From an uncultured Blautia sp. (GTDB lineage Bacteria > Bacillota > Clostridia > Lachnospirales > Lachnospiraceae): a stretch of 38,683 nt of DNA. Positions 4,325 to 29,324 of the stretch are shown here, in pieces. The stretch lies in assembly GCA_945864225.1 (NCBI GenBank), contig CAMBAL010000019.1, positions 1-38,683 of the forward strand, in the 5' to 3' direction. The notes beneath the pieces were generated by a model. That model saw nothing but the letters and a program-made list of their open reading frames with translations, was not told where the DNA came from and ran no database searches. Each line of letters starts with the position of its first letter. Within the stretch, counting starts at the first letter, position 1. The translations under genes and the position numbers were made by a program.

Positions 4325-5161
4325 TTAATCCGCTTCTTTCGTTTTGCGTTTTACAGCACTTGGAAGCACTCCGTATCTTCTCTGGAATTCCTTGGAAAAG
4401 GCACGGCTGTTGGGGAAACCATTGTCCATGGCAATCTGACTGATGGTTTTGTCCGTATTGACCAGTTCCCGATATGCATAAACCATCCGGATATCCTGAA
4501 GATATGTCTTGAAATTGATTCTGGCATATTTTTTGAACATGCGGGAAAGGTACTCCGCAGAATATCCGAATGTGGAGGCCACTTCCGAAAGCTTCAGTTC
4601 TTCCGTATAATGTTCTCTCATATATGCGGTGATTTTTGACAAAGCATCCAGCCGGCGGCTGTAATGCAGCTCTTTTTCCTGAACTTCTGTCACACGATAA
4701 TCCGCCACAAGATAATAAAGAATCTCATAATACAAAGCTCTGCTCCTGAATTCATAGCCTGTAGCCCGTCCTGCATATACCTCATACAGCATACGAATCA
4801 ACTCAGCCATATGCTCATCCATTTCCGGATTTCCTGCCTTTATAGAAAAACGGATATACCTCTGTGCCGTAAAATAATCTTCAAATTGCTTCAGCGGAAT
4901 CTGGAGTACTACGGTCTCATTTCGTTCCGGCGCATGGATGGAATGAATCTCATTCGAATTAATAATTAGAAATTCTCCTGCTTTCAGCGGATGTTCCTCT
5001 TCATTCAGAAAAAAAGACAGTTCCCCCTCCAAAACAGCAAAAATCTCTATCGATGTATGCCAATGTTTCTCCCGAATATAATTTCCATTACTTCCCTCAA
5101 ACAAAAACAGTTTGAAGGGAAGGTCCTCGTTGGGAATGATCAGTTCATGCTGAAATTCCAT
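4325..5161 (-). CDS. AraC-family transcriptional regulator with cupin sensor domain
   Basis: A 278-residue regulator. The N-terminal cupin domain (about 1-130; LFEGSNGNYIREKHWHTSIEIFAVL) would bind a sugar. The C-terminal double helix-turn-helix (about 175-275) has the typical LSEVASTFGYSAEYLSRMFKKY and ISQIAMDNGFPNSRAFSKEFQRRYG segments. I chose the ATG at 5161 because GGAGGAG precedes it; the longer frame to 5218 runs back into a MITE-like repeat and has no better site. It lies in the same direction as, and 194 bases before, the DUF4867-isomerase-kinase operon. It is very likely that operon's activator, sensing the substrate or its ketose. Confidence 0.88.
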   Translation of the reverse strand: MEFQHELIIPNEDLPFKLFLFEGSNGNYIREKHWHTSIEIFAVLEGELSFFLNEEEHPLKAGEFLIINSNEIHSIHAPERNETVVLQIPLKQFEDYFTAQRYIRFSIKAGNPEMDEHMAELIRMLYEVYAGRATGYEFRSRALYYEILYYLVADYRVTEVQEKELHYSRRLDALSKITAYMREHYTEELKLSEVASTFGYSAEYLSRMFKKYARINFKTYLQDIRMVYAYRELVNTDKTISQIAMDNGFPNSRAFSKEFQRRYGVLPSAVKRKTKEAD

Positions 5162-5177
5162 AACTCCTCCCTGCTCT

Positions 5178-5226
5178 AGAATGTGTTTGAAAATTGCTTT
5201 CCGACAGATGTACGTCACAATTTTTT
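5178..5226. repeat. MITE-like repeat, left-half copy
   Basis: AGAATGTGTTTGAAAATT followed by GCTTTCCGACAGATG and CGTCACAATTTTT matches the first 50 bases of the element at 5283 with two changes. It lies directly upstream of the AraC gene and forms part of its 5' leader. Confidence 0.85.
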
Positions 5227-5282
5227 ACCTGTTTTATACAGTATACCACAAAACCGCGCTTTAAGTATAGACTATTTCCACT

Positions 5283-5444
5283 AGAGCGTGTTTGAAAATT
5301 GCTTTCCGACAGATGTGCGTCACAATTTTTGGGGAATTTGACTCAAATGAGGGAGGCATAGCGGGCTATGTTGACCGAATGCGAGACAAATTTCCCGCAA
5401 AGTGGGGCGTGCAGATGCCGGGAATGAATTTTCAAACACGCTCT
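5283..5444. mobile_element. Full-length MITE-like element, 162 bp
   Basis: It is bounded by perfect 18-base terminal inverted repeats, AGAGCGTGTTTGAAAATT and its complement. The interior has no credible gene. It starts two bases after the trpF-remnant stop codon, reading on the minus strand. Internal landmarks (CGTCACAATTTTT, AATTTGACTCAAATGAGGG) recur in the other copies in this window. Several copies end CTCTA, hinting at TA target sites as used by IS630/Tc1-type transposases, but no clean target duplication is visible here. Confidence 0.8.
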
Positions 5445-5445
5445 G

Positions 5446-5777
5446 TCACTGTCCTCTTCGATCGAATGATAATTCTCTCACGATACGGACCGCTTCCAGG
5501 ATCTTCGCCGGATCTTTCCTACGTTCCGTTTCCAGACTGCTGCTCAAATCGACTGACCATGGATGCAGGGTATGAACTGCTTTCTCCAGATTCTCCGTAT
5601 TTAATCCTCCAGCCAGAAAATACGGACGCTCGATTTCAGGTCTCTGAGTGTTTCCCTAGAAATACTGCGAAAGCTTTTCGGAAACTCCACAATGAATCCG
5701 GCAAAATCCGGCATTGCTGCATTCACTGCCAAAATATCATCCCGGCTTCTCAGCCCGCAGATTTTTATTTTTGCCAT
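5446..5777 (-). pseudogene. trpF: trpF remnant (phosphoribosylanthranilate isomerase), internally deleted
   Basis: The start is normal: ATG with GGAGG upstream, then MAKIKICGLRSRDDI and FAGFIVEFPKSFRSIS, the TrpF N-terminus. The frame then jumps to the C-terminal phosphate-binding region, read in another frame as [14 protein letters not shown] and [13 protein letters not shown], ending at TGA 5446. About half of the roughly 200-residue enzyme, the middle barrel strands, is missing and the join is out of frame. It cannot make an active isomerase. A MITE-like element abuts its end, and a second element separates it from trpC. Confidence 0.88.
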
Positions 5778-5800
5778 ATCCTATCCTCCGTTTTTTTTAC

Positions 5801-6044
5801 GGTAGTGTCTACTTTATACATCCAAAATCGGCTCAACCCCAGTAAAATCAAGGCTTCCAGGGTCTATGAGCCTTTACCTCCCCTTTCTTTTGCTTGATTG
5901 ACCCAAATTTTACTTCGGGAATCCAGTCAAGGCCGGGCTGAAAGCCCGTTAAATTCAGCCTTGACGGGGTTTCCGTAAGTAAAATAGAATTGCTCAATCC
6001 AAAGGAAAAGGAGGTGATTTTTTCATATCGTACTTTACACTACC
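5801..6044. mobile_element. 244-bp non-coding insertion element with 8-bp target duplication
   Basis: The ends are imperfect inverted repeats, GGTAGTGTCTACTTTATAC on the left and the complement of GTACTTTACACTACC on the right. It is flanked by TTTTTTAC at both 5793-5800 and 6045-6052, an 8-bp target duplication. The interior carries an inverted pair (AGTCAAGGC/GCCTTGACGGG region) but no transposase. Size, ends and duplication length suggest a MITE mobilised by an IS256-type transposase. It separates trpC from trpF; the left duplication lies just upstream of the trpF ribosome binding site. Confidence 0.85.
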
Positions 6045-6048
6045 TTTT

Positions 6049-6585
6049 TTACAGCGCCCCACCATTCAGTTCCTCCAGCATGGCTTTTTTACCTGGACTT
6101 CGCATTAATGTTTCCCCGATCAGAACTGCATCCACCTGATTTTCATAAAGCTTCCGGATATCCTCACTGGTACGGATACCGCTTTCGGATACAAACACCG
6201 CATCAGCAGATGCCAGTTCCCGAAGCCGTATGCTGTTGCACACATCCACCTGAAAGGTACGCAGATCACGATTATTCACTCCGATGATTTTTGCACCGGA
6301 ACGCAGAGCACGGGACACCTCTTCCTCATCATGAGCTTCTACCAGCGCATCCATTCCCAGCTCTTCTGCAAGAATCCGATAACTCTTCAGCTGTTCGTCA
6401 TCCAGAATGGCACAAATCAGCAGAACTGCAGATGCTCCAAGTTCTTTTGCCTGATAAATCATATATTCATCTACTGTAAAATCCTTTCTCAGTACCGGTA
6501 TCTGAACATTCTCCGTAATCTCCTTCAGATACCGGTCACTTCCCAGGAAATAAAACGGCTCTGTCAGACAGGAAATCGCCGACTC
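6049..6585 (-). pseudogene. trpC: trpC remnant (indole-3-glycerol-phosphate synthase), N-terminus lost
   Basis: The frame reads [62 protein letters not shown] and VFVSESGI, all strong TrpC signatures, through to a normal C-terminus. The first 70 or so residues, including the substrate-binding and catalytic Glu of strand 1, are gone. The remaining part is fused in frame to the C-terminal tail of trpD (join near 6585). About 178 of 260 residues remain. There is no start codon of its own, so it is inactive. Confidence 0.9.
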
Positions 6586-7178
6586 ACCTGCATTCAGGCA
6601 TACTGCCTGACGTTTCGGCCCTTTCTCTGTTCCTGTAAGAATGGCTTTTGTGATTTCTGCATTTTCCTGGGGTGTTCCGCCCACCAGGTCCTCTTTGGAG
6701 CATCTTGTATATCCGAACTATTCCGGCGTCAGTTCATATGACTGGAACCATCCGTCACGAATCTCACAAACAGAAGTCGGTGCACTCATGGAAATCTCAT
6801 CCGGCTTGTCCTGTCCATAGACGACCATTCCACGGACAACACCAAGCTTCGCCATAACCTGCGCCAGAGGTTCTACCAAAGCTTCATCAAACACGCCCAT
6901 CAGTTCCATATTGGCACCTGCCGGATTGCTCAGAGGTCCGAGAATATTGAATACTGTGCGGATTCCCAGTTCCCGGCGGATCGGTGCCACATATTTCCCG
7001 CTGCACCTGACTTGGAGGAAGCCGCCCGGTTTCCATGTTTTGCTACCGGTACACCGCCTGCCGCGATCACCAGAGAGGAAGTTGTGGAAATATTAAAGGA
7101 ATTGGCACCATCCCCTCCTGTTCCCACAATTTCCAGCACATCCATATCATGTAAAAGCTTAATACAGTGAGCTCTCAT
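6586..7178 (-). pseudogene. trpD: trpD remnant (anthranilate phosphoribosyltransferase), multiply broken
   Basis: Three pieces can be followed. From 7178 the frame begins at [31 protein letters not shown] and [12 protein letters not shown], so the first 60-70 residues are missing. Near 6998 a deletion plus frameshift joins this to [21 protein letters not shown], losing about 45 codons. That piece runs to an amber stop at 6718, after which the same frame continues as [20 protein letters not shown] and ends within [10 protein letters not shown], where it fuses to trpC. The PRPP-site loop GTGGDG survives but no complete protein can be made. Confidence 0.92.
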
Positions 7179-7612
7179 ACCGTATGTTCCACTGCCATGA
7201 CTTCTCCGTCTTCCGATTCTGCAGTCACTCTCAGTACTTCCGGAAGTGTATCACGGACAGCCGCCAGAGAATGATATCGTGCAGCAGGAAATCCTTCCTT
7301 CAATCCATCGAAAAGCCTGCTTTCTCCTACTTTATAAATCATTTTCTGCTTACCGTGCATCAGCTCTTTCGCGTAGGATACGGTTGCGCCAAAGGCTTCA
7401 CAGATGGACTGATGTCCCAGGCACACACCAAGGATGGGAAGTTTCCCGGCAAAATATCGAATCGCTTCCACGCAGATTCCTGCATTGTCCGGACGTCCGG
7501 GGCCCGGGGAAATCATCAGCGCATCGGGATGCATGTTTTCAATTTCTTCCACGGTATATTCATCGTTGCGGACTACCCGTATATCCGGTTCCACAGAACC
7601 AACCAACTGATA
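7175..7612 (-). pseudogene. trpG: trpG remnant (anthranilate synthase glutaminase), both ends lost
   Basis: From YQLVGSVEPDIRVVRNDEYT onward the frame is TrpG: ISPGPGRPDNAGI, the nucleophile motif ILGVCLGHQ and RYHSLAA. It ends at [10 protein letters not shown] and a stop. The first 15 or so residues were lost with the end of trpE, to which it is fused in frame. The C-terminal FHPE motif holding the catalytic His-Glu pair is also lost. The triad is therefore incomplete. Confidence 0.92.
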
Positions 7613-8710
7613 CACTTCCAGATATTTTTCTACTTCCACAGATCCGATTTTGCTGATTTTCCCGATATCGTTTCTTCCCAGATCCACCAGCATGTTATGC
7701 TCTGCAAGCTCCTTTTCATCTTTCAAAAGATCTGCTTCCAGTTCCAGATCTTCGCTGCGCGTCTTTCCCCGGGGTCTTGTTCCCGCCAGCGGAAAGGTAC
7801 TGAGTTTTCCGTTTTCCAGTTTTACCAGTGTTTCCGGAGAAGCACCGGCAATTTCAATATCATCACTGGTAAAATAAAACATGTACGGAGAAGGATTGCT
7901 TGCCCTCAGAATGCGATACGTATCAAAAAGGCTGCCCTCCGCCTTTGCTCTCATCGGATTGGAAAGAACCACCTGAAATATATCTCCCTCACGGATATAA
8001 TGTCTGGCAGTTTCCACCATCTGACAGTATTTTTCTTTTGGAAACTGAGGCTGTATTTCCGACTGCAGTTTTATAGGTTTAAATTCTTTTTTCGGCCCGA
8101 ACTTAATCAGCTCTGCCAGTTCATCCAGCGTCTGTTCTGCTTTTTTGAGGGAATTTTCCAGATCATCTGTCATAACCCATGTGATCAGAAGAATTTTTTG
8201 CCGGTAATGATCAAATGCGATCACCTAGTCAAACAGCATCAGATCCATATCACGAAAATCCGGTTCTTCATGTTCTTCCAGTTTCAGCTTCGGTTCACTG
8301 TACCGGATATAATCATAAGAAAAATATCCCATCAGGCCTCCGGTAAATGGAGGCATTCCATCGATCATCGGACTTTTGTACTGATCCAGAATTTCTCTCA
8401 GAGTATCCCCAGGATGTGTGACCTGACGGATGGTTTCTTTTTCCCCATCCGGAGAGGTACTGCTTATTTTCATCGTTCCGTCTGTACATGTGATTTCCAT
8501 TGTCGGCCGGAAACCAAGAAACGAATATCTTCCCCAGACTTCTGTCTGTCCGGCACTTTCCAGCAGATAGCAGTGTCTGCTCACCTTGCGAAGAGTACGC
8601 ATAACCTCAACAGGTGTATAGCGGTCAGAATAAAGTTCCCGGCAGACAGGTATACGGCGATATTTGCCGGTGGCTGCCAGTTGACGGATGATTGTTTGTG
8701 TTGGATACAT
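7613..8710 (-). pseudogene. trpE: trpE remnant (anthranilate synthase component I): amber stop and lost C-terminus
   Basis: The gene starts normally at ATG 8710 with GGAGG upstream. It reads as TrpE through GRYSFLGFRP and PFTGGLMGYFSYDYIRY to LMLFD, then amber TAG at 8225-8227, then VIAFDHYRQKILLI in the same frame. A single AAG to TAG change would explain the stop. The chorismate-binding half continues through VVLSNPM, YMFYF, LAGTRPRG and MLVDLGRND, but stops at EVEKYLEV, where it fuses to trpG. About 120-150 C-terminal residues with part of the active site are absent. Readthrough would not rescue it. Confidence 0.93.
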
Positions 8711-8774
8711 GTAAGGGTACCTCCATTTCTGAACTTTTTTGAAAGAATCCCGCCCGGAATCACAATTCTGCAAT

Positions 8775-8825
8775 ATAAAAAACACCCATCCCGGACAGAT
8801 ATATTTCTGTCAAGGACGAGTGTCA
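8775..8825 (-). terminator. T-box attenuator terminator
   Basis: On the minus strand ACACTCGTCC-TTGACAG pairs with CTGTCCGG-GATGGGTGT around an AT-rich loop and is followed by TTTTTT. It lies between the T-box sequence and the trpE start, the usual position of the regulated terminator. Confidence 0.88.
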
Positions 8826-9050
8826 TTATTCTTCACCCGCGGTGCCACCTTGGTTCACAGCTGCTACTGTGCTCTTGCGGAATACCATCATATTCCCGGC
8901 AACTGACGTATGCCTTCACGTCGCAGAATACTCGGACATTGCCTTTGACTGCGCCCTCAGCGGCCCATTTGGCAACCTGCTTTCCGACCCGGCTCTCACC
9001 TCCCCGGACTCTCTGTGCGTGCACGATTACTTTTATTTCCGCTTCAACAG
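8776..9050 (-). promoter_or_regulatory. T-box leader, predicted tRNA-Trp responsive
   Basis: The T-box sequence AAGGTGGCACCGCGG is at 8834-8851 on the minus strand, with the attenuator terminator just downstream. Stem I upstream has AGAGAG, GGTGAGAGCC and GTCGGAAAGC elements. The likely specifier codon is TGG (8965-8967) in GCCAAATGGGCCGC, matching tryptophan and the trp genes that follow. In this family uncharged tRNA pairs with the specifier and the T-box to form the antiterminator. The leader looks undamaged although every gene behind it is broken. Confidence 0.92.
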
Positions 9051-9092
9051 TTTGTTGTGTTATTAATTTAATTCGTTAAATTCTTTTTTTAT

Positions 9093-9121
9093 ACAATAGA
9101 ACAGACATTTTTCATTGTCAA
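9093..9121 (-). promoter_or_regulatory. Promoter of the trp T-box transcript
   Basis: TTGACA (9116-9121) and TATTGT (9093-9098) are separated by 17 bases on the minus strand, directly upstream of the T-box leader. Just beyond lie two near-identical AAAATATTCT(A/G)CT segments (9127-9170) of unknown role. Confidence 0.7.
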
Positions 9122-9214: not shown

Positions 9215-9988
9215 TCAATGCCTCTGTTCTAGATTGCTGTAATTTTCACAGAACCTGCATGCAAAAGATGGCGCTTCCCCTCCTGCATACAAATGGGAGA
9301 TGTCCCCGATTCGAAGTCCCCGGAAACTGGCAATTCCCCGTTCTCTTTCTTCGGTGACAATTTCCGTGACAGAAGTCGGTGCAAGCGCAAAGCTGTGCCA
9401 CAGAATAAACGGAGAAACATTCCACAAATGGGAAAGTATCGCACAGATTACTCCGAAATGGCAGAAGAAGGTCACCGTATCGGTGCTTTCTTTCACCACA
9501 TGATAATGATTTTCTTCACGCACATATCCGTGCTCTGCAAGAAACTGATCCAGATTTCTGATCAGATTGTCGTACACAGAAACCATATCCCCGCATCTGG
9601 CTGCTTCAGAATTCTGCCATCCATTTACTGTCCAATATTCCGGATGGGATGACAGATAAGAAGGAACCATATCCCATACGATTCTCTGCTTAAACAATTC
9701 TCCGTTTTTCTTCGTGTCCGGATAAGCACTCTGCAATTCCTTCGAACCATTCAAATCCGTAACTGCCGGAAATTCTCTCAGCCAGTCCAGAACCTGTGCT
9801 GTTTTTCCCGTTTTTTTCAGAGAATAGGCAGCGGTATGCTGTGCTCTTCCAAGCGGTGACATGAAACATTCTCCCAGATTCAGATGTTCTGCCATATCTG
9901 ACAGAAGCTTTGCCTCTCTGTGCCCCTTTTCCGTCAGTGTATCATGCTCATAATCGGGATCTCCATGACGAATCAGCAAAATTCTCAT
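9215..9988 (-). CDS. Histidine phosphatase superfamily protein
   Basis: A 257-residue phosphoglycerate-mutase-like protein. The catalytic LIRHGDPDY is at residues 4-12, SPLGRAQHTA supplies the second Arg, and TFFCHFGVI the second His. There is no signal peptide, so it acts in the cytosol. The ATG is three bases after the stop of the diguanylate cyclase gene, implying translational coupling. It closes a V4R-cyclase-phosphatase operon. Substrates in this superfamily range from sugar phosphates to nucleotides and phosphoproteins and cannot be fixed from sequence. It has an unusual Cys-containing tail (CRFCENYSNLEQRH). Confidence 0.85.
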   Translation of the reverse strand: MRILLIRHGDPDYEHDTLTEKGHREAKLLSDMAEHLNLGECFMSPLGRAQHTAAYSLKKTGKTAQVLDWLREFPAVTDLNGSKELQSAYPDTKKNGELFKQRIVWDMVPSYLSSHPEYWTVNGWQNSEAARCGDMVSVYDNLIRNLDQFLAEHGYVREENHYHVVKESTDTVTFFCHFGVICAILSHLWNVSPFILWHSFALAPTSVTEIVTEERERGIASFRGLRIGDISHLYAGGEAPSFACRFCENYSNLEQRH

Positions 9989-18573: not shown

Positions 18574-20127
18574 ATGGATCGCATTTACATCGCCATAGAC
18601 CTGAAAAGCTTTTATGCATCTGTCGAATGCCGGGAGCGTAGGCTTGACCCGATGACCACCAACCTTGTGGTCGCGGACGCTTCCAGAACATCGAAAACCA
18701 TCTGTCTGGCAGTCTCTCCCTCTCTGAAAGCACACGGCATTCCCGGACGTCCACGGCTTTTTGAAGTAATACGGAAAGTACGCGAAATCAATGCCCGAAG
18801 AATGTCAGATGCCATTCGCTGTCGGGCCATTTGTCGGGATTCCAGCGGAACATATGCATTTTCCGGTTCTTCTTGCGATGCGGAACAACTGAAAAAGAAT
18901 CCTTCTCTGGAACTATCTTACATCACCGCTACACCACGTATGGCCAAATACATGGAGGTATCTGCTTCCATTTACAGTATTTATCTGAAATACGTTGCAC
19001 CGGAGGATATTCACGTTTACTCCATTGATGAAGTCTTTATCGATGCCACGGAATATCTCTCGGTTTATCATAAGAATGCCAGAGAACTGGCAATGACCAT
19101 GATCCAGGATATTCTTCACACGACTGGAATCACAGCCGCTGCCGGAATCGGTACAAACCTTTATCTGGCAAAGGTCGCCATGGATATTGTCGCCAAACAT
19201 GTCCCGGCTGACCGAAACGGCGTCCGGATCGCGGAACTGAACGAACAAACCTACCGTCAGCTTTTATGGACACATGAACCAATTACCGATTTCTGGCGTG
19301 TAGGAACGGGATATGCCCGAAAACTTCATGAAAACGGTCTTTTTACCATGGGCGATATTGCGCGCTGCTCTATCGGAAAGCCTGATGAATATTACAATGA
19401 AGACCTCTTATATAAACTTTTTGGCATCAATGCAGAGCTTCTGATCGACCATGCCTGGGGATGGGAACCCTGCACCATTGCTGAAATCAAACAATATAAA
19501 CCACAGGATAATTCTGTAGGATCCGGTCAGGTTCTCTCACATCCGTATGACTTTGAAAAAGCCCGGCTGGTAACCAGAGAAATGACGGATCTTCTGGTTC
19601 TGGATCTTGTGGATAAAAATCTCGTCACTGACCAGCTGGTTCTGACCGTAGGTTACGATATCGAAAACCTTACCGGTGATCGTGCCGGCAGCTATCACGG
19701 TCCTGTTACCGTCGACCGGTACGGCCGCCGTGTCCCCAAACATGCGCACGGCACAGAAAATCTGGGAAAATACAGCAGTTCCACCAGACTGATCACTGAT
19801 TCCATGATGAAGCTTTATGACCGGATCGTTAACCGTGATCTTCTCATCAGACGCATCACCATCTCTGCCGGTCATATCATCCATGAAGCAGATATTCCAA
19901 ATCGGGAACCAACTTTTGAACAGCTTGATCTTTTCACAGACTATGCGGAACTGGAAAAACAGAAACAAAAGGAAAATGCCGAACTGGAACGCGAAAAAAA
20001 GCTCCAGCAGGCTACTCTTGCCATCCGTAAAAAATTCGGAAAAAACGCCATCCTGAAAGGCATGAACCTTCAGGAAGGTGCTACCGCCATGGAAAAAAAC
20101 CGTCAGATCGGCGGACACAAAGCCTGA
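18574..20127 (+). CDS. Y-family DNA polymerase (UmuC/UvrX-like)
   Basis: A 517-residue translesion polymerase. Catalytic acidic residues are in [14 protein letters not shown] (residues 5-18, first Asp) and YSIDEVFID (about 149-157, Asp-Glu). The thumb and little-finger domains follow, with the helix-hairpin-helix region around [26 protein letters not shown] charged coiled tail (about 455-490) ends it. It is longer than DinB (about 350-410 aa) and resembles Firmicute UvrX. ATG 18574 follows AAGGAGG. The YolD-like gene comes 24 bases later, the usual partner, and the promoter has a LexA-like box. It would copy damaged DNA with low fidelity. Confidence 0.93.
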
Positions 20128-20150
20128 AAGAAAGAAGGAGAATCCAAATC

Positions 20151-20606
20151 ATGTCAAAAGATCCGCACCGTTATGATGATATCATTCATCTTCCTCACCA
20201 TCAGTCACAGGTTCATCCTCACATGTCTCTTTCTGACAGGGCCGCACAATTTTCTCCCTTTGCCGCTCTGACAGGGTATGACGATGCCGTACAGGAAACT
20301 GCCCGTCTGACAGAATCCCGTATCGAACTGGATGAAAATGCCAGAGTTCTTCTGGATGAACGACTCCGACTTCTGCAGATAAACCTGGAAGAACACCCTT
20401 TTGTTACTTTTACCTATTTCATCCCGGATTCCCGGAAGGAAGGCGGTTCCTACTCTCTTGCCGCCGGTATAATAAAAAAACTGGACCTTCTTCACCGCAC
20501 GATTACACTGTATGCAGACAATGGGATTTCAGACGGTACCGAAATCCCTATTGACGAAATCACCGCCATAGAGGGTGAAATTTTCCGCAGTATGTCTGTT
20601 AGATAA
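20151..20606 (+). CDS. YolD-like family protein
   Basis: A 151-residue YolD-like protein. [21 protein letters not shown] (about residues 25-45) is the hallmark start of the family, followed by a helix and a beta domain ([20 protein letters not shown]). In Bacillus, yolD-like genes are paired with UvrX/YqjW polymerases and are damage-induced; a role as a polymerase subunit like UmuD' has been suggested but not settled. It is 24 bases behind the polymerase gene with its own GGAG, so the two form one operon. Confidence 0.88.
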
Positions 20607-20629
20607 TTTTGTTACTCTGTCCAAATATT

Positions 20630-20860
20630 TTACTCAGGAAATTCCAATACCGCTATCTTGGAACGCGGAGTATTTTTCTTCTCTACAACGACCCCCTTTC
20701 GGGATTTCAGTCTCTGGGCAAGTGGAATCGGTGCACTCATTCCCAGAGAATCCTGAAGCATATAAAAATAATTTGCAGACAGATATTCTGTTACTTCATA
20801 TTCCTTACCGATTTCTATCATTGGTCCATTATCTTCAATAGAAAATTCTATCCGTCTCAT
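20630..20860 (-). CDS. Small hypothetical protein, 76 residues
   Basis: It reads MRRIEFSIEDNGPMIEIGKE, with a protein-like mix of residues and a basic stretch (RLKSRKGVVVEKKNTPRSK) near the C-terminus. A GAGGCG lies about 15 bases before the ATG, a poor fit. No known family. It is convergent with the YolD-like gene, 24 bases away. The amino-acid pattern favours a real gene, but it could be chance. Confidence 0.5.
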   Translation of the reverse strand: MRRIEFSIEDNGPMIEIGKEYEVTEYLSANYFYMLQDSLGMSAPIPLAQRLKSRKGVVVEKKNTPRSKIAVLEFPE

Positions 20861-20889
20861 TTCTGTCTCTTTCGCCTCTTTCCATCCAA

Positions 20890-20950
20890 ATACTGATTAT
20901 TTATCATGAATTATTTATCATGAATCTTTTATCATTGATTATTTACCATT
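20890..20950. repeat. Short AT-rich tandem repeat (about four units)
   Basis: TTATTTATCATGAA-type units of 13-16 bases, later units diverged (TTATTTACCATTGG). They lie upstream of the small hypothetical gene, between it and the end of the glycosidase gene. Confidence 0.65.
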
Positions 20951-20993
20951 GGCTCTTCACCGCTGCTTATTCTTCAATTCCTGTATACATTTG

Positions 20994-23459
20994 TTATTTC
21001 CAGCGTTTGAAGGTTACCTTCTCTTCCTGATGCATCGAAATTTCGATCATTTCACCGGAATATTTTCCTTCACGACCATCCGAATGAAGCACCGATACAT
21101 ACTGTCCCGGCCATGGATTCACAAGGCGGCAGGGATGTCCTTTATGGCTGACTACAGTGACCGTATCCACCATTCCATCCTTTAATGATGCACTCACTTC
21201 AAAAGCTCCGCAGGCGCAAAATCCCCGGAACGATGCCTCCGGATGATTTTTCACCGGCCATACAGGGAAAATACGCAGCACTCCCTCATGACTCTGAAGC
21301 ATCATTTCCTGGACTGCATCCGGAATCGTATTCAGTTCTTCAATACCATGGGGATTCTCTTTGAGATATCCATTGGGAAGTCCCCGATGAAGAATCATCT
21401 GCCTCATTTCTTCCCAGATAATATCCGGATCATATCCCACTCTCGCTGCTGCTGCAAAAAACAGGCAGCTCAGATTGGATGCGTTAAATGCTCCTGCTTT
21501 ATAAAAATGCGGATTCTTCACTGGTTCCCCGGACTGTCTTGCTTTTTCCAGTTCATGTATCCCCAGTGCATTTTCCACCAGAGCATGAATATGTACTGTA
21601 TTCCAGGCTGTCTGCAGTTCTTCCGGACTGCTTCCCAGACCAATGGCACTTCCCGGATAAATCTGCATGATATTTCCCGGGAAATGAAAAGACCATTTAC
21701 CGCCCACGCCCTCATCATAATAAATCTCTGTATCCATCAGTTCTTCCGGAAGCAATTCCTCCAGACTTACCTCTGCTTCCGTCCACAGAGTCGGATTCTC
21801 CTGTATTTCGCGAATGGTTCCTTTCGGATAATCTGCCAGATGTTCTGCAATTTCCGTCCATTTCTCCCGCTTTTCCTCATCAAGATCCAGTACACTGCTA
21901 ATCACCGGCATCCAGGTAAAAAAGGTTTTCAGGTAACCAAGTGTATTTACCGGATCTTCCGGCACGCCATGTTCCAGAATATTGCTGTCCGTCCGCTCGT
22001 GCATCCCATCTCCTGCTACATGATAGACGCCATCTCTGCATACAAGATCCTTTTCCCAGAAATCCGCAACACCCCGCAGAAACGGATATACTTTTCGGGC
22101 ATATTCTTCCTCTTCTGTCAGACGGTAACGGAAAATCATATTTAATGCACCATGCAAAGCCGGAGATTTCATATGGAGAAGCAATGCCTCACTGACCATG
22201 CCATGAGGTCCCAGCCCCAACGGATAATAAAGCCCTTCGTGTTCCAGAAGACGTTCTGACATTTCCCCTGTAATGTCCATCAGTTTCAGATACGGACTGT
22301 CATGAGGATCGGACTGCTGAAAATGCCCGGATACCATCAGATTCAGATACGGAGACTGATGATTGTAATTAATCTTATAGTTTCCATTCCATGCAGGACG
22401 GTCAAAGGTACTGATTCCCAGGATATTTGGCGGATACTCCGGGTCCCTGGAGACACTGGCAAGCATATATTTGGAAAGATAATATCTCTCCTCAATCAAC
22501 GGATCATCCAGAGTGATCTCCGAAACAGACCAGAACCTCTTCCACCAGGATAAATTCTGACTTCTCAGCTTTTCAACCTCTGCATATGTCATCCAGCGGG
22601 CTCTGGATACCGCATACTCATACGGTCTGGAATATTTTGCCCATGAACGCACAGGAAGCACAAAAGTGGCTTTTTCACCTGCAGCTAATTTCTTTGACGC
22701 AATTCTGGAGGTCATATCCCGCTCTTTTGGATTTTCAATAAAACATCCGGCAAATCCATCCTTTGTCGGAATATCCACATGGTCACTGAACTGCCGGTAT
22801 CCGCTGACAATATTTCCCCTGATCTGTTTCACCTGCACCGGACGTCCGCTGATCATTCCCACAAACATTCCATTCTGAATTTCTTCCGATTCACCGCTTC
22901 CCCAGATATCGACCGTACAGTCACATCCTTTTCCGGCTTCGTCCGGAAAATAAAAATCATACTCCAGGTCCAGCTCCAGTTCGGTATCAAATTCTATCAC
23001 CAGCACGTTTTCCATGGCTGCAACCCAGCTTTTCATGATACATTTTCTGCCTTCTTCATCTGTCAGGACAGTCGTTGTCGTTGCAGTCAGAAAATCCTGT
23101 TCTGTATACCAGGATGCGTTTTCCAGAGCCGGAATATCAAATACCATTCTTCCTACCGGACGAGGACTGCCTGCACCCATGGCAGGATCACATTTTGCAG
23201 AAGAGTTATCATGGAAAAACTCCCAGTTCGGAGCGCTTTCCATCTGCCAGAAATCATTCGTGGTGATCCAGAACTGTGGGAAACGGGAATTTCCAGCCAG
23301 TGCTGCCAGCAGGTCTCCATTTCCCAAAATCGGTGCATCTATTTTTGTTCCGGCATCCTGCCAGATTTTCCAACGTCCTCCTCCGGACACATCTACATTC
23401 CCGTTCGGCACTGCAGCCGGTGGTGTGTGAAATATTGTTTTATTTCTTTCTACAGTCAT
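20994..23459 (-). CDS. Glycoside hydrolase, GH95-like, cytosolic
   Basis: An 821-residue protein with the layout of GH95 alpha-L-fucosidases/galactosidases. An N-terminal beta-sandwich (about 1-280) is followed by an (alpha/alpha)6 barrel (about 320-740) and a C-terminal beta domain. RPAWNGNYKINYNHQSPYLNLM matches the conserved W-G-N-Y-N region, and DAVQEMMLQSHEGVLRIFPVWP matches the barrel-end signature. There is no signal peptide or sortase motif, so it must act on imported oligosaccharides. The ATG follows AAAGGAG. It has no sugar transporter beside it. Specificity is unknown; some residues around the barrel deviate from classic fucosidases. Confidence 0.78.
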   Translation of the reverse strand: MTVERNKTIFHTPPAAVPNGNVDVSGGGRWKIWQDAGTKIDAPILGNGDLLAALAGNSRFPQFWITTNDFWQMESAPNWEFFHDNSSAKCDPAMGAGSPRPVGRMVFDIPALENASWYTEQDFLTATTTTVLTDEEGRKCIMKSWVAAMENVLVIEFDTELELDLEYDFYFPDEAGKGCDCTVDIWGSGESEEIQNGMFVGMISGRPVQVKQIRGNIVSGYRQFSDHVDIPTKDGFAGCFIENPKERDMTSRIASKKLAAGEKATFVLPVRSWAKYSRPYEYAVSRARWMTYAEVEKLRSQNLSWWKRFWSVSEITLDDPLIEERYYLSKYMLASVSRDPEYPPNILGISTFDRPAWNGNYKINYNHQSPYLNLMVSGHFQQSDPHDSPYLKLMDITGEMSERLLEHEGLYYPLGLGPHGMVSEALLLHMKSPALHGALNMIFRYRLTEEEEYARKVYPFLRGVADFWEKDLVCRDGVYHVAGDGMHERTDSNILEHGVPEDPVNTLGYLKTFFTWMPVISSVLDLDEEKREKWTEIAEHLADYPKGTIREIQENPTLWTEAEVSLEELLPEELMDTEIYYDEGVGGKWSFHFPGNIMQIYPGSAIGLGSSPEELQTAWNTVHIHALVENALGIHELEKARQSGEPVKNPHFYKAGAFNASNLSCLFFAAAARVGYDPDIIWEEMRQMILHRGLPNGYLKENPHGIEELNTIPDAVQEMMLQSHEGVLRIFPVWPVKNHPEASFRGFCACGAFEVSASLKDGMVDTVTVVSHKGHPCRLVNPWPGQYVSVLHSDGREGKYSGEMIEISMHQEEKVTFKRWK

Positions 23460-23654
23460 ACTCTTCTCCTTTTCTTTTTTATTTCAAATCTGTTCGGATT
23501 GTGTATTTCAGATATCTTTTACAGCAAAATCGAAGCCGTTTCCCGAAGCATGTGTGCCCCTTCATAATACTTCCATTCTTTTCTGTCTGACAGCTATTTT
23601 CTCTTTACATTCTGTAATCTCTGTTCACAGTAACTTTATTCAGCATCACAGGCA

Positions 23655-24263
23655 TTATAGCCAGACATTCAAAAGTAACAGAACAAACATTCCAACTGCC
23701 GCCAATAATCCGACTCTGTACATCCATTGATTCATTATTCCTCTGGAGGAACATAATCCGAGACTGACTCTTCCCTGAAGCGGATAAAACAGCCGCAGTC
23801 CTTTGAGATTGAGAAAATCAAGAACCAAATGCGACAAAAACGCTATCTGAAAATACGGTATCATATCTGGCAAAAAAATATCCGTACATCCGGTCAGCAG
23901 TACAAGCGCCAGCAGAGAATGCATAAACGACCTGTGGGGCTGTTCCTTCCCATATGCACAAATCACCAGAAATACCGCCGCTGCAATCACAACTCTCGCA
24001 ACAGAGCTGTCTCTCATAATCATCTGATAAATGCCCACATGCCACTTATATTCAACCGCAATCATTGCTGCTGCCGCAAGAAACGAAACAAATATAATCT
24101 TATTCGCCTCTTTATGGCTTTCAGAAGTTCCGCTGTCAATATCACTGATCACCGCTCCCACTGCCGAAATGCCGGTTCCCAGTATCAGTTCCTGAATGGT
24201 CTTTGGCCGCAGAAAAGCCAGACTCACTGCCACGCCTACCGCCATATGTGTTTTTCCAAGCAT
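23655..24263 (-). CDS. YdjM-like membrane protein (metal-dependent hydrolase family)
   Basis: About 202 residues with five or so membrane segments. It shows the YdjM/DUF457 pattern: MLGKTHMAVGVAVSLAF at the start, SDIDSGTSESHKEANK, PHRSFMHSLLAL in the middle and FLSHLVLDFLN near the end. The His and Asp residues are conserved and thought to bind metal in the membrane. E. coli YdjM is LexA-controlled; no such box is clear here. I start at ATG 24263, preceded by GGGGG; the longer frame adds 14 unrelated residues. The exact function of the family is unknown. Confidence 0.87.
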   Translation of the reverse strand: MLGKTHMAVGVAVSLAFLRPKTIQELILGTGISAVGAVISDIDSGTSESHKEANKIIFVSFLAAAAMIAVEYKWHVGIYQMIMRDSSVARVVIAAAVFLVICAYGKEQPHRSFMHSLLALVLLTGCTDIFLPDMIPYFQIAFLSHLVLDFLNLKGLRLFYPLQGRVSLGLCSSRGIMNQWMYRVGLLAAVGMFVLLLLNVWL

Positions 24264-24344
24264 GAATACCCCCTGTATTTCCTGCTGTTTCGTACAGCAA
24301 ATCATCCATAACTATATCACTTGCCTGTTTTCTCTTTATCATCG

Positions 24345-26375
24345 TTATATTTCCTGCAGCATGGAAAACGCCTTCATCAATTCTTTCTCTCCATAGTCGT
24401 CAAATGCAACCGTTATCATGTCATCAGATTCCCGGATCACCGTCCCCTGTCCATATTTTGGATGCTCTACCCGTAGAGCAGAGGTTTCTGATATGACGCT
24501 GCCTTCCATACGGTGTTCTTTCTCTTCCAGATCTGCCGAAGTCTTCTGGCGCTCTTCCAGCACCATGCGCTTCATCTTCTGCAAATGTTCCGCTGCAGCT
24601 TTCGGGTCTTTCCCAAAGCCTTCCGGGATTTCCGTAAATTCCTTTGGAAAAACAGCCAGATATCTGCCGGGGCCCGGTCTCACTCCGACTCCATCCGGAT
24701 TGATGTAACAGGAAATCTCCAGATATTCTTTTGCCCTGGTCATCCCCACATAAAAAAGTCTCCGCTCCTCTTCCTCACTGTCCGGATCACTGCACCGCAG
24801 GGGAATTAGTCCGTCATTGACTCCAATAATAAACACATGGGAAAATTCCAGACCTTTGGAAGCATGAAGTGTCATCAGGCTGACTGCATCTTCCCTTTTT
24901 TCCCCGGACTCCACAGAAAATCCATTCAGCATCACAGAATTCAAAAAATCCCGTATACTCTTATAATTTCTCAGCTGCACAAACAAATTCTCTATCTGTT
25001 CCCGGTCTTTCTGATAAGAGGATGAAGAAGGATGTAGATATTGAGTCAGACACAGCCGGTCTGGCAGGTCTTCATAATCTTTCCCTGTCTCCTCATATTC
25101 CCACATTTTCTGCAGAAGCACAGAAGCTGAACACAGGGATGTTCCTTCACGAAGGGAAGTCAGCTCTTTCAGTGCTTTCTTCGACGTCCATCCTTCTCCA
25201 TACATCTTATCACACAGAACACATACCGCACTGGAAGTATCTTCATGATTCGCAAGAAATCGCAAAACATGTATAAACCAATTCACCACATGGATATCCT
25301 GCAGACTCTTTTTCACAGAAATCTGACAGGGAACCTGATTCTGGGCAAATACTTTTTCCAGAATCTCCGCCTGATTCTGCAGCCTGTAAAACACCGCAAT
25401 CTCTCTATATGCCATGCCCTGTTCATGCAGAGAGCAGATCTTTTCCGCCAAATATTCCGCTTCCTGAAAAGAATCGTAATGTTGCTGAATAACCACTCTG
25501 CCTCCGGGTTCCCTTGTTCCTTCCAGACTGCTTCCATTCTGCTGAAATCGTTTCGATGCCGCCAGGATATTTCCCGATGAACGGTAATTCACAGACAACG
25601 ACAGTTCTCTCGCCTGATATTTCTTCCTGAGCTGATAAAAAATCTGAAACGCACTGCCCCGCCAGCTATAGATCACCTGATTGGGATCCCCTACTGCAAA
25701 AAGATGGGTTTCCGGTTTTTTCATCTGTTCCAGAAGCTCCAGCTGTATCTGATCACAATCCTGCACTTCATCAACAATAATCCAGTCTGGACAAAGGATT
25801 TCCGAATGCGTCTTCAGAAGAAAAATCGCATTCTTCAGAAGATCCCGATATGTCATTTTATTCTGCTTCTTCTTTTCCTCCTCCAGAAGTCTGAGCAGTT
25901 CCGGAAAATCATCCTGATAATCTTTCTTTTTACCGCGTATATGACTGTCCATCTGCTCCAGACGTTTTCTCAGCCTGTTTTTATATTTAATTTTCAATTG
26001 ATATTGCCCGATCAGCTGCTGCGCAAGCTCCAGTTCTTCTTCCGGAAGGCACACCTGAAACTCTTCTGTATACCCCAGTTCTTCCACCGGAAGAAGTGTC
26101 TGCAGCATCCGAAGAGCCACACTGTGAAACGTCCCGAACCATGGTGTTTCTCTGCTTTCTATACCCTGATGGTTCAGACGTTCGCGTATCTCATCTGCTG
26201 CCTTATTCGTAAAAGTCAGCACAATCATATCCTTCAGAGAAACACCTTTTTTCTCATACAGATATCGGATCTTTGAAATGAGAACCGTTGTTTTTCCGCT
26301 TCCCACATTCGCATTGACCAGACAGACATTGCTGTCATCCTGTACCGTTTCCTGCTGTTCCTTATTCAGTTCCAT
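24345..26375 (-). CDS. UvrD/PcrA-like superfamily 1 DNA helicase
   Basis: A 676-residue 3'-5' helicase with all SF1A motifs. These are LNKEQQETV (Q), NANVGSGKTT (Walker A, 21-30), VDEVQDCDQIQ (motif II), AVGDPNQVIYSWRGS (III), LSVNYRSSGNI (IV), MTLHASKGLEFSHVFI (V) and RRLFYVGMTRAKEYL (VI). The C-terminus ends with a Tudor-like stretch (VEHPKYGQGTVIRES) as in PcrA, which contacts RNA polymerase. It follows the MrfA-like helicase gene by about 100 bases that contain a hairpin. A second, housekeeping PcrA probably exists elsewhere; this one looks dedicated to the repair operon. Confidence 0.92.
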   Translation of the reverse strand: MELNKEQQETVQDDSNVCLVNANVGSGKTTVLISKIRYLYEKKGVSLKDMIVLTFTNKAADEIRERLNHQGIESRETPWFGTFHSVALRMLQTLLPVEELGYTEEFQVCLPEEELELAQQLIGQYQLKIKYKNRLRKRLEQMDSHIRGKKKDYQDDFPELLRLLEEEKKKQNKMTYRDLLKNAIFLLKTHSEILCPDWIIVDEVQDCDQIQLELLEQMKKPETHLFAVGDPNQVIYSWRGSAFQIFYQLRKKYQARELSLSVNYRSSGNILAASKRFQQNGSSLEGTREPGGRVVIQQHYDSFQEAEYLAEKICSLHEQGMAYREIAVFYRLQNQAEILEKVFAQNQVPCQISVKKSLQDIHVVNWFIHVLRFLANHEDTSSAVCVLCDKMYGEGWTSKKALKELTSLREGTSLCSASVLLQKMWEYEETGKDYEDLPDRLCLTQYLHPSSSSYQKDREQIENLFVQLRNYKSIRDFLNSVMLNGFSVESGEKREDAVSLMTLHASKGLEFSHVFIIGVNDGLIPLRCSDPDSEEEERRLFYVGMTRAKEYLEISCYINPDGVGVRPGPGRYLAVFPKEFTEIPEGFGKDPKAAAEHLQKMKRMVLEERQKTSADLEEKEHRMEGSVISETSALRVEHPKYGQGTVIRESDDMITVAFDDYGEKELMKAFSMLQEI

Positions 26376-26431
26376 ATACTACAATTCCTTATGATATTTC
26401 ATTTGCATCTGCTGAAAGACGTATTCATCTC

Positions 26432-26471
26432 GTGAAAATACAAAGCATTGCTCCGCACTTCGTATTTTCAC
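26432..26471. other. Hairpin between the two helicase genes
   Basis: Fourteen-base arms (GTGAAAATAC-AAAG and CTTC-GTATTTTCAC, one mismatch) without a T-run. It probably tunes the amount or stability of the uvrD-like part of the transcript. Confidence 0.6.
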
Positions 26472-26476
26472 AATTA

Positions 26477-29140
26477 TTACTTGTATCGCCTGAACAATTT
26501 TCTCTTCCTGTATGCCTCTTCCTCTGCCGTTTCCTCATTCTGCGGCACCGCAAAAATATCCACTCGGAACAATGGCGGCACTTCCGCATAATATCCGATC
26601 ATGTTCTGAATTCCCGTACGATTTTCCGGCATATTGGCCCACTCGGCATAAAAGGAATCTTTCACAAATAACTGCAGTGCCTCTCCTGCTGTTTTGACAC
26701 TGCATACGGTCTGAAAGAACGAAGCATATACCTCACCGTTTCCCCTGGTCTTCTCACAGAATTCTCCCCATCTGTCTGGAAGCTCTGACATCCGGAATTC
26801 TTTTTGGATCCATTTTGTATCTGCCCACTTCACCAGTTTCCTGCTATCCGGAAAATCCGACTCTTCCAGAAGATTCTCAAGTCCCCACAGGACAATCCTG
26901 CGGTCAAGTCTGTAATCTCCCACACAGGCAGCACAGCCATCTTCACATTTGCATCCGGATACCATGCGTACAGCCTGTTCCACCACACGTGGCATCATCT
27001 CAAATATTTTTTCCGCAAATCCAAGACCGCCGGTATAACAGTCATAAAAATACAAAAACACCTCATCCTCTGTCTGTCCGGACACCTCCATCGCATTGGT
27101 GGAAACGGTTACTCCAATATCGGTCTGCTCTGTCATCGTTACCATTAAGGCGGCATTTTTCAACGCAAAAGACAACCCGTCAAAATGATTATTCCGCACA
27201 TATCTTCCGGATCCATCCGGCTGGAGCAGTCTCCGATATGCACGAACCACATTCCGCGGCAGTTTCAGCCAGACAGCCTCTGTATCATAATTTTTGCTCA
27301 GAGGGCTGGCAAGCTGCTGATATCCGATATTCTGCTGTGTGTGAAACTGCAGCTTCTTGTACATATACACATAATCCGCCACATTGATATCGCCAAAATG
27401 CATATCCGTTCTCTTCCAGTTCTGTTCTCTGCTGCAGTGAATGATACGGATATTAATCTCATCTCCGGGAACTGTATAATAATTGCCGTTAAACGGCACA
27501 GCGTATACCATCTTGCTTTCCATATCCATTTTTACAATCTGATAAAATTCTCCGTCATGAATATAGACTGCGCCTTCATATAGTTCGTGAAATGCCTGAC
27601 TCTCATCCATCTCCGTAATTACTTTTCCCGTTTCCTGATGAAGCAGCTGATACCGGTTTTTGTCAATGTTTCTGAGAGAAAAATCCCCTGCCGGATACTG
27701 ACCGCCGGACCAGGCAAATCGTCCGCCCTGATTTCTCACTTCTTCCATTTTCAGAAGGACCGGTATGACTTCTCCAAGATCCGGAAACACTCCCATATCA
27801 TCCAGAGACAGCGGAAGCTCCGCAGCTGCCGCCCGGATATGTGCCAGCTCGATCAGGAGATTATCCGGATCTGCAATGGCATTCTCACTGCTTCCTTCAA
27901 AAAGCCAGCCTGGTTCCAGGGCAATATACTGATCCATGGGAAGCTGATCCAGAATCAGATAGTTGGTACATTTTTTACTGTTTCGACCTGCGCGGCCGGT
28001 CTGCTGCCAGAAAGAAGCCCTTGTCCCCGGATATCCCACCAGAACGGTGGAAGATATTTTGCCGATATCGATGCCCAGTTCCAGCGCATTGGTAGAAACC
28101 AGTCCCAGCAATTCCCCGCTGATCATTCTCTGTTCAATGGACTTCCGTTCCTGAGGCGTATAACCGCCGCGGTATCCGGAAATGCGGTCAGCACCCACTG
28201 TCCCGAGAAATCCGCTGCCATCCAGATGATCCCTTGTTTCTTTCAGGATTACTTCCACATTTCGTCTGGATTTCGCAAAAGCAATAAAGCTTTCTCCCTG
28301 CTCCATCAGTTCCGGAAGCATATCTGCAGCAACATTTGTCACCGACCGCTGACAGTAATATTTCTCATCTCTGCCCGTAATCTTCGGCGGCTGTATCAGA
28401 CAGTATTCTCTCTGTGCAGTCCCGGAACCATCCCTGTCAATACAGACAAACTCCGTCCCGCAGATTTTTTCCGCCAGTTCCGCAGGATTGGCAATTGTGG
28501 CAGAACTGCACAAAAACTGCGGCTGTGAATGATAATATCTGCAGATACGGGATAAGCGCCGAAGTACATTGGCCATATGAGAACCAAATGCTCCCCGGTA
28601 TACATGAAGTTCATCCAGTACCACATATTTCAGATTCGAAAAAATAAAATCAAATCCATACTTGCTGTGATTCGGCAGCATGGCACCATTAAGCATATCC
28701 GGATTGGTCAGAATAATATTCGCCTGTCTGCGTATCCGGCTCCGCTCTGCCTGCGGGGTATCCCCGTCATAAACCCCCGCATCGATTCGATTCCGTCCGA
28801 AATATTCAATCCACGGAAGAAGCGCCCGGTACTGATCTGCCGCCAGCGCCTTGGTCGGATACACAAAAATCGCTCTTGTCATCGAATTTTCCAAAATTTC
28901 ACTGATGACCGGAAGCAAAAAGCTCAGCGTCTTCCCGCTTGCCGTAGAAGTCGTAATCACAAGATTTTTCCCCTGCTTTGCCTGTTCAAACATTTCTGCC
29001 TGATGGCAGTATAACATATGAATTCCCTGATGCTTCAGATAACCGGCAATTTCCGGCTCTAATCCTGTAGGAAAATCGGAGAATACAGGTTCTCTTGCAG
29101 GTATCGTTTTTTTATAAATAATGAAATCGTCTATCGTCAT
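26477..29140 (-). CDS. MrfA-like superfamily 2 helicase with DUF1998 zinc domain
   Basis: An 887-residue DEAD/H helicase. Walker A is TTSTASGKTLSF (about 60-71), followed by the DELH box, SATIANP and the C-terminal helicase motif QQTGRAGRNSK. The DUF1998 domain carries the cysteine set C-x-C-x3-C-x2-C in CKCEDGCAACVGDY, as in Bacillus MrfA (YprA), which repairs mitomycin-type damage with the exonuclease MrfB. No MrfB lies here; a UvrD-like helicase follows instead. The ATG has AGGAAAGAG upstream. A promoter-like TTGCAT-17-TAGAAT and a LexA-like box lie 125-185 bases upstream. Confidence 0.88.
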   Translation of the reverse strand: MTIDDFIIYKKTIPAREPVFSDFPTGLEPEIAGYLKHQGIHMLYCHQAEMFEQAKQGKNLVITTSTASGKTLSFLLPVISEILENSMTRAIFVYPTKALAADQYRALLPWIEYFGRNRIDAGVYDGDTPQAERSRIRRQANIILTNPDMLNGAMLPNHSKYGFDFIFSNLKYVVLDELHVYRGAFGSHMANVLRRLSRICRYYHSQPQFLCSSATIANPAELAEKICGTEFVCIDRDGSGTAQREYCLIQPPKITGRDEKYYCQRSVTNVAADMLPELMEQGESFIAFAKSRRNVEVILKETRDHLDGSGFLGTVGADRISGYRGGYTPQERKSIEQRMISGELLGLVSTNALELGIDIGKISSTVLVGYPGTRASFWQQTGRAGRNSKKCTNYLILDQLPMDQYIALEPGWLFEGSSENAIADPDNLLIELAHIRAAAAELPLSLDDMGVFPDLGEVIPVLLKMEEVRNQGGRFAWSGGQYPAGDFSLRNIDKNRYQLLHQETGKVITEMDESQAFHELYEGAVYIHDGEFYQIVKMDMESKMVYAVPFNGNYYTVPGDEINIRIIHCSREQNWKRTDMHFGDINVADYVYMYKKLQFHTQQNIGYQQLASPLSKNYDTEAVWLKLPRNVVRAYRRLLQPDGSGRYVRNNHFDGLSFALKNAALMVTMTEQTDIGVTVSTNAMEVSGQTEDEVFLYFYDCYTGGLGFAEKIFEMMPRVVEQAVRMVSGCKCEDGCAACVGDYRLDRRIVLWGLENLLEESDFPDSRKLVKWADTKWIQKEFRMSELPDRWGEFCEKTRGNGEVYASFFQTVCSVKTAGEALQLFVKDSFYAEWANMPENRTGIQNMIGYYAEVPPLFRVDIFAVPQNEETAEEEAYRKRKLFRRYK

Positions 29141-29212
29141 GCAGATGCTCTCTTTCCTGGTATTATCGGTTATGTTCCGATTAAAGGCTGAAACCTGTGC
29201 TTTCTCTGCTGT

Positions 29213-29231
29213 AATTTACAAACACGCTCTA
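29213..29231. repeat. MITE-like repeat, right-end fragment
   Basis: AATTTACAAACACGCTCTA, one base from the standard right end. It lies in the leader of the MrfA-like gene. Confidence 0.65.
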
Positions 29232-29261
29232 ACCCGTATATAAAAATATTTTTAAGCAATT

Positions 29262-29324
29262 GTTATACAGTCATTCTATAACAGAAACAATTGTTATGCA
29301 AGTACTTTTTCGAACATTTGTTTG
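29262..29324 (-). promoter_or_regulatory. Promoter region and LexA-like box of the helicase operon
   Basis: On the minus strand CAAACAAATGTTCG (29311-29324) matches the Firmicute LexA operator (CGAAC-N4-GTTYG when read on +). About ten bases further comes TTGCAT, 17 bases, TAGAAT. Two copies of ATAACAATTG spaced 31 bases flank the -10, a possible site for another regulator. The box sits upstream of the -35 rather than over the -10, so repression is less certain than for the polymerase. Confidence 0.6.

Follow-up and report, generated by a model that had tools for sequence, protein, structure and literature searches.

The locus examined here raises the question of why a promoter and a Trp T-box leader stand undamaged above tryptophan biosynthesis genes that are broken or gone. 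The window, i.e. the whole 38,683-nucleotide stretch analysed, belongs to a draft Blautia genome (G000; 115 contigs, an estimated 84% complete), and was compared within a set of 64 genus genomes that includes it. In our assessment the locus is, with high probability, a recently inactivated trpEGDCFBA operon of a Blautia-type gut bacterium, in which the intact leader reflects the youth of the loss.

The Trp T-box leader is preserved

The following leader elements were identified:

9093..9121, minus strand: promoter-like site TTGACA - 17 nt - TATTGT (sigma-70-like consensus scan, 10/12 bases; such a match alone is no proof of function)
8809..9056, minus strand: Trp T-box leader (Rfam RF00230 covariance model, 77.9 bits, E 4.1e-17)
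8965..8967, minus strand: UGG specifier in stem I (read from the T-box model alignment; columns invariant in the genus alignment)
8776..8823, minus strand: attenuator terminator hairpin with U-run (read from the sequence)

The RF00230 match covers the full length of the model (1-219), and both the specifier codon and the T-box bulge GGTGGNACCGCG are present. Because its 77.9 bits fall below the gathering score of 93, a gathering-threshold Rfam search of the window misses this leader; nor did such searches return a T-box, but only tRNAs, from 15 sources with trp loci of relatives and from 14 more sources. Leaders of relatives were instead collected by motif search and alignment. Nine of the 43 loci examined gave none (four lacked a TrpE match and five the motif, two of the latter explained by a contig end), and removal of the divergent G048 and G063 before columns were counted left 32 rows. 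Across these rows UGG is invariant, GGTGGCACCGCG is conserved except for a T in one row, and the leader of the window keeps 110 of 110 near-invariant columns. The attenuator hairpin was not reported by a simple terminator scan. In the sister genome G064 the orthologous leader (L251 7307-7624, 86%) sits above an intact operon. The leader would probably still respond to uncharged tRNA-Trp but would yield only non-functional transcripts.

Nine lesions in the trp structural genes

Lesions were mapped against the intact operon of G064 (L027, which provides the residue numbering), found on contigs C19 and C46 with the same flanks either side of a contig break. The remnants and their surroundings are as follows:

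9215..9988, minus strand: gene of the histidine phosphatase family, intact, flanking the leader on its upstream side (Pfam; relatives' loci)
7618..8710, minus strand: trpE remnant, residues 30-394 (tblastn, 87% identical to L027 TrpE)
8225..8227, minus strand: in-frame amber in trpE (ORF stops, then reopens; Gln in the outgroup genomes compared)
7175..7618, minus strand: trpG remnant, residues 15-158 (in-frame fusion to trpE; stop at the G/D join)
7000..7178, minus strand: first trpD piece, residues 65-125 (98% identical to L027 TrpD)
6585..6999, minus strand: second trpD piece, residues 164-302 (after a 112-bp frameshifting deletion)
6718..6720, minus strand: in-frame amber in trpD (ORF list; Gln in relatives)
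6049..6584, minus strand: trpC remnant, residues 89-268 (in-frame fusion to the trpD piece)
5801..6044, no strand assigned: MITE-like mobile element separating trpC from trpF (inverted ends GGTAGTGT; 8-bp duplication of the target, TTTTTTAC)
5446..5777, minus strand: trpF remnant, residues 1-51 and 145-202 (about 280 bp of the middle deleted; join out of frame)
5282..5444, no strand assigned: repeat with inverted ends, in place of the lost trpB-trpA-peptidase (self-comparison; 94% copy in G013)
4325..5160, minus strand: AraC-family regulator, intact flank (Pfam; collinear in G064, G072, G024 and G075)

A preliminary description of the DNA, made from its sequence alone, had proposed a trp operon eroded gene by gene beneath an intact T-box with a TGG specifier, and comparison with G064 bears this out. 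In line with that description, trpE carries an amber (TAG at residue 192) and loses its C-terminus into trpG through a deletion of ~428 bp, joined in frame; trpG loses its end into trpD (~421 bp, out of frame); and trpD, with its internal deletion of 112 bp, likewise out of frame, and a second amber (TAG at residue 256), runs into trpC across a further in-frame deletion (~392 bp). TrpB and TrpA, described as absent, have no match in the window, and the peptidase gene that lies behind trpA in intact relatives, where the order is trpEGDCFBA, has been lost with them. The 3' end of trpC seems to be natural and not a lesion, since the TrpC matches of many relatives also stop near residue 268. In total, six deletions, two nonsense changes and one insertion were counted, and 997 of 2204 codons are left.

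The insertion is the MITE-like element, 244 bp long, which sits at the trpC stop codon and has copies on contigs C4 (97%) and C43 (99%) of the same genome, each with its own 8-bp duplication, as well as a 95% copy in G013. A partial second copy of the repeat that replaces trpB-trpA-peptidase lies at 5176-5225.

The preliminary description had further held that deletions hit mostly gene junctions and join frames cleanly. Neither preference withstood counting, and both were dropped: three of the five internal deletions span a gene junction (P = 0.15) and two of the five joins are in frame (P = 0.54), in both cases within chance.

The remnants are probably young

The fourfold-site distance to G064 is 0.99, and a value of about 1.0 to the sister suggests a very recent loss. 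At 542 conserved codons, 15 replacements (including the two nonsense changes) were counted in the remnants, overlapping the 0-20 found in ten intact relatives of our choosing and consistent with recent loss; G064 shows 5, and the broken operon of G017 10 at 459 such codons. Similarly, 4 of 264 genus-invariant residues are broken in the remnants, two of them at breakpoints, and intact genomes in the same count break 0 to 11. Given this overlap with intact genes, the age is to be read as an upper-bound estimate. What is left of the coding sequence shows roughly as little decay as the leader does, and recency alone therefore explains the intact leader. What seems unusual is the tempo, in that six large deletions are accompanied by little point decay.

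Tryptophan supply and stages of loss within the genus

A second trp locus was sought across the G000 assembly (est. 84% complete, so that one may lie in the missing part), where TrpA had no match and the TrpB model matched once, at 30 bits where its cut-off is 392, in keeping with the tryptophan auxotrophy predicted earlier. Another Trp T-box in this genome, also with a UGG specifier, precedes importer genes that we call only TrpXYZ-like, as the TrpX candidate scores 214.2 bits and does not reach the NCBIfam TrpX equivalog cut-off of 390. An importer with a UGG T-box is also present in G064. The substrate is predicted from sequence to be tryptophan, and, given an importer under its own Trp T-box, the bacterium is probably a tryptophan auxotroph living on uptake.

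Loss of trp is common in the genus, as TrpA exceeds its cut-off in only 41 of the 64 genomes. The operon is broken at an early stage in G017, which keeps its leader; G010 retains 0.6 kb of trp scraps in pieces of ~35-200 nt; and in G072 the whole operon is gone. The leader motif was sought and not found in G010, nor was it found in the stretches taken around the flanking genes of the trp-less G072, G024 and G075. A tree of the flanking genes places G000 itself without good support; near it, G064 with G024 and G075 form the one well-supported group.

Taken together, these observations suggest the following order of events. Biosynthesis would have died through two nonsense changes and the loss of trpB and trpA, at a time when the TrpXYZ-like importer under its Trp T-box was already there. 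Deletions of 0.1-3.4 kb would have outpaced the build-up of point mutations and stripped away over half of the codons, the promoter and T-box leader surviving since time was too short and no deletion had reached them.

Alternative explanations

Selection may have added to this course, with which it is compatible. The T-box would switch the broken operon on at each tryptophan shortage, at a cost, and deletions cutting that cost would be favoured and outrun point decay. The ratio of large deletions to point changes fits such a process, as do a TrpB scrap in G010 still 93% identical to the intact protein, a second T-box gene of G000, CstA-like (C16:40857), shredded alike into pieces 94% and 86% identical, and the faster-than-neutral removal of young Salmonella pseudogenes (PMC2916853). 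However, identity is lower in the remaining scraps of G010 (TrpG 70%; TrpA 46%, a gapped match), the only two shredded loci in G000 both came to light by looking at T-boxes, which leaves the link to T-boxes tentative, and a neutral deletion bias may suffice; we regard selected shredding as a possible but rather unlikely addition. Somewhat more doubtful is the general form of the idea, that T-box-controlled dead genes here are shredded by clean internal deletions far faster than by point mutation, starvation-induced readthrough being costly and the leader among the last parts to go. If true, trp loss in the genus would pass through G017, G000, G010 and G072 as successive stages.

We consider it very unlikely that the organism has an intact operon from which the draft assembly lost stretches. 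In favour of this reading, G000 is a fragmented draft, as are the genomes with the other broken operons (G017, G010), and three deletions are similar in size (392-428 bp). All five joins are known from one assembly only: in none of the other 63 genomes of the genus does an alignment reach more than a few bases across the E/G or the G/D join (22 of the 64 having no match there at all), and a simple, non-exhaustive prefilter with 26-mers over the five joins, own-locus copies excluded, gave no match of at least 22 bases in the loci compared. Against an artefact, the joins, judged by eye, share at most ~5 bases with the lost side, too few for the usual assembly-graph misjoin. Furthermore, the window contains no N, the ambers, and likewise the element flanked by its target duplication, count as lesions in their own right, and the scraps of G010 are far smaller pieces (see above). 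Comparable other genes of the contig match over their own length: of 43 relatives' ORFs with a match, 35 are covered to at least 0.90, the remaining 8 rows (0.21-0.89) being, to judge by position and identity, probably a paralogue or frames that are antisense or alternative. In other parts of the window, too, long matches run collinear with relatives.

Less probable again is a leader kept by selection, e.g. one that soaks up uncharged tRNA-Trp or drives a gene downstream. Its conserved columns show no departure and the downstream AraC gene lies on the same strand, but more than 3 kb of remnant plus repeat separate the two, and the coding remnants are conserved to a similar degree, so that a leader-specific constraint was dropped as a candidate. 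The preliminary description had offered recent decay or tRNA titration for the leader's persistence; the former agrees with the undecayed remnants, whereas the latter has no support, the motif being missing from G010, which has lost more of the operon, and from the stretches taken around the flanking genes of G072, G024 and G075. Finally, that the frames left open across joins (TrpE-TrpG, 349 aa; TrpD-TrpC) encode new functional proteins is extremely improbable, as an upstream amber interrupts each, all four parent proteins lack more than a quarter of their length, in-frame joins are not above chance, and no relative examined shares the joins.

Comparison with known systems

On the favoured reading, a gut commensal is seen soon after it began to lose a costly amino-acid pathway, with the starvation switch intact. 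With four stages of trp loss in a single genus, one can test whether selection or mutational bias clears away dead operons, and how gut bacteria become auxotrophic. A search of open-licence literature, covering titles and the starts of abstracts, for pseudogenes beneath a T-box or riboswitch leader, for remnants of trp and for orphan riboswitches listed no matching case.

T-boxes of trpE are mentioned in PMC2494555, and the T-box-regulated trp operon of Firmicutes (RF00230) shares the leader class and UGG specifier found here and, in intact relatives, the order trpEGDCFBA; in contrast, the structural genes are broken here. In human gut bacteria, according to the sections available of PMC9026213, tryptophan synthesis emerges as the amino-acid phenotype that varies most, whatever the taxonomic level, although that survey, as far as those sections go, scores complete and incomplete pathways and not stages of decay. 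The closest counterpart for supply is an auxotrophic Streptococcus suis, which relies on uptake through a TrpXYZ importer under a Trp T-box (PMC9382623, in excerpt). Both have a UGG T-box over genes for a substrate-binding protein, permease and ATPase, whereas TrpX here lies below the family cut-off and the importer is known from its sequence. Lastly, Kuo and Ochman report from Salmonella, in the extracts used of PMC2916853, that deletions dominate pseudogene decay and that removal follows soon after inactivation, and the present locus resembles those young pseudogenes on both counts. It differs in degree: 346 of 378 Salmonella pseudogenes carry one inactivating mutation and a small fraction have lost more than 20% of their length (same extracts), compared with nine lesions and the loss of over half of the codons in this operon.

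Remains of a complete trp operon

In G000, a 2.67-Mb draft genome of 115 contigs (completeness estimate 84%) of which the window is contig 19, the minus strand carries, 5' to 3', a phosphatase-family gene, promoter-like site, T-box leader, trp remnants, repeat and AraC-family gene.

Features of the trp locus in the window
9215-9988, minus strand: phosphatase-family gene, intact, upstream end of the locus
9121-9093, minus strand: promoter-like site (sequence match)
8809-9056, minus strand: Trp T-box leader
8710-5446, minus strand: remnants of trpE, G, D, C and F
5801-6044: MITE-like element of 244 bp with GGTAGTGT ends, lying at the stop codon of trpC and flanked by an 8-bp target duplication
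5282-5444: repeat with inverted ends, between the trp remnants and the AraC-family gene
4325-5160, minus strand: AraC-family gene, intact, downstream end of the locus

In the sister genome G064, a full trpE-G-D-C-F-B-A operon (L027, matched to the 56,041-bp contig C46 by its length and its identical Trp proteins) is followed by a peptidase gene, which we take to be an M20 peptidase, then araC and one further gene, presumably DUF4867, and is collinear with the window in alignment. The G064 leader, at the end of a separate contig (C19), adjoins the same phosphatase gene and is 86% identical to the window leader. From this collinearity and shared neighbour it follows that the window's locus formerly carried a complete trp operon. 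Breakpoints were placed by comparison with L027.

Losses in the window relative to L027
trpE/trpG: deletion of about 428 bp, frames joined
trpG/trpD: deletion of 421 bp, stop codon at the join
within trpD: deletion of 112 bp, frameshift
trpD/trpC: deletion of 392 bp, frames joined
within trpF: deletion of about 280 bp, join out of frame
trpB, trpA and peptidase gene: lost entirely

TAG codons also occur at TrpE 192 and TrpD 256, where outgroup genomes encode Gln, and 997 of 2204 codons survive. A preliminary description of this locus, as a trp operon eroded beneath a T-box, holds in almost every respect. Its further claims, that deletions fall mostly at gene junctions and join frames cleanly, are not supported: three of the five internal deletions span a junction (P 0.15), and the reading frame is kept at two of the five joins (P 0.54), and neither pattern therefore calls for explanation. 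At the trpG/trpD join (7175-7178) the stop overlaps an ATG (ATGA), resembling a coupled start, probably by chance.

Two more copies of the MITE-like element, each with its own 8-bp duplication, were found in G000 (C4 and C43), and a further copy in the genome G013. Where the trpB-trpA-peptidase segment has been lost, the 5282-5444 repeat is accompanied, at a distance of about 60 bp, by a partial copy in direct orientation (5176-5225); recombination between copies of this kind could have produced that deletion.

Authenticity and age of the lesions

The joins are supported by a single assembly, the main weakness in reading them as true deletions rather than assembly artefacts. Against an artefact, the joins lack homology as judged by eye, the window is free of N, and the ambers and element insertion are independent lesions. 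Furthermore, 35 of 43 relatives' ORFs matching the window were covered at 0.90 or more (the other eight being judged antisense frames, alternative frames or a paralogue), and long matches across 18700-38600 are collinear without large gaps, though some of this region stays unmatched among the four genomes searched.

The remnants break 4 of 264 residues invariant among the intact genomes compared, two of them at breakpoints; the intact genomes themselves break 0 to 11. At 542 codons conserved among a chosen set of outgroups, the remnants carry 15 replacements, counting both ambers, against 5 in G064 and 0 to 20 in ten intact relatives. Relative to a mean of 6.6, the excess is about eight changes, although, since intact genes show overlapping counts, it may be smaller. 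Over roughly 1200 replacement sites, we estimate that this would amount to less than 1% of neutral divergence, a short final stretch of the branch (fourfold-site distance between window and G064, 0.99). In a 32-row alignment, the leader agrees with all 110 near-invariant columns. Since the coding pieces are about equally fresh, its survival requires no function; of the two explanations previously offered for its persistence, recent decay is favoured, while titration of tRNA-Trp is unsupported. The locus is an ordinary pathway loss, well preserved at an early stage, and the strain is likely a tryptophan auxotroph.

Loss and uptake among relatives

Of 64 genus genomes, 41 have a TrpA above its family cut-off and likewise 41 a TrpD; among the 34 of better quality, 24 have a TrpA match. 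Four stages of loss are visible. G017 retains the leader, with an in-frame internal trpE deletion (about 420 bp by alignment coordinates) and an amber in trpD; G000 represents the window's stage; in G010 the operon is reduced to about 0.6 kb (L245, about 6190-6770) consisting of trpE, G, B and A scraps in order, with no T-box motif found upstream, and adjoins tRNA genes resembling those upstream of the G017 operon; and G072 has its araC and phosphatase matches separated by 13 bases. In G024 and G075 these flanks sit on separate contigs, and the flank stretches examined yielded no T-box motif. The losses look repeated, as trp-less G024 and G075 cluster with trp-bearing G064 in the flanking-gene tree (support 1.0), though G000 and G072 are placed weakly.

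G000 has ten T-box matches besides the window's leader, with specifiers read by us from alignments. One (C62), with specifier UGG, precedes an ABC importer of three genes; the product of the first matches TrpX with a score of 214 bits, short of the 390-bit cut-off. As the importer is also present in G064, behind a similar leader, uptake probably predates pathway loss. In Streptococcus suis, a tryptophan auxotroph, a Trp T-box is reported over trpXYZ (PMC9382623). A G013 contig (L315, G013:C45:60000-68000) is 99.75% identical to G000:C62 (L255) over 5.7 kb, and an 82% version also occurs on G013 C106; the near-identical contig may belong to the window's species and have been binned with G013.

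Tempo of deletion

A second G000 locus looks similarly shredded: an orphan T-box (C16:40857-41148; L263 4858-5149, scraps to about 4596), missing its bulge region and with an AUC specifier by our reading, precedes two pieces of a CstA-like protein, one of 63 residues (94% identical) and one of 28 (86% identical); the gene for the full-length protein, with a T-box of its own, is 20 kb distant. With two such loci seen, either selection against starvation-induced expression or plain deletion bias may account for the shredding. The tempo of deletion is the point of specialist interest at this locus. In a Salmonella survey, 346 of 378 pseudogenes carried a single inactivating mutation and just a small fraction had been shortened by over a fifth (PMC2916853); in contrast to the pseudogenes described there, the window's operon shows little point decay alongside six large deletions, one insertion and two nonsense mutations.
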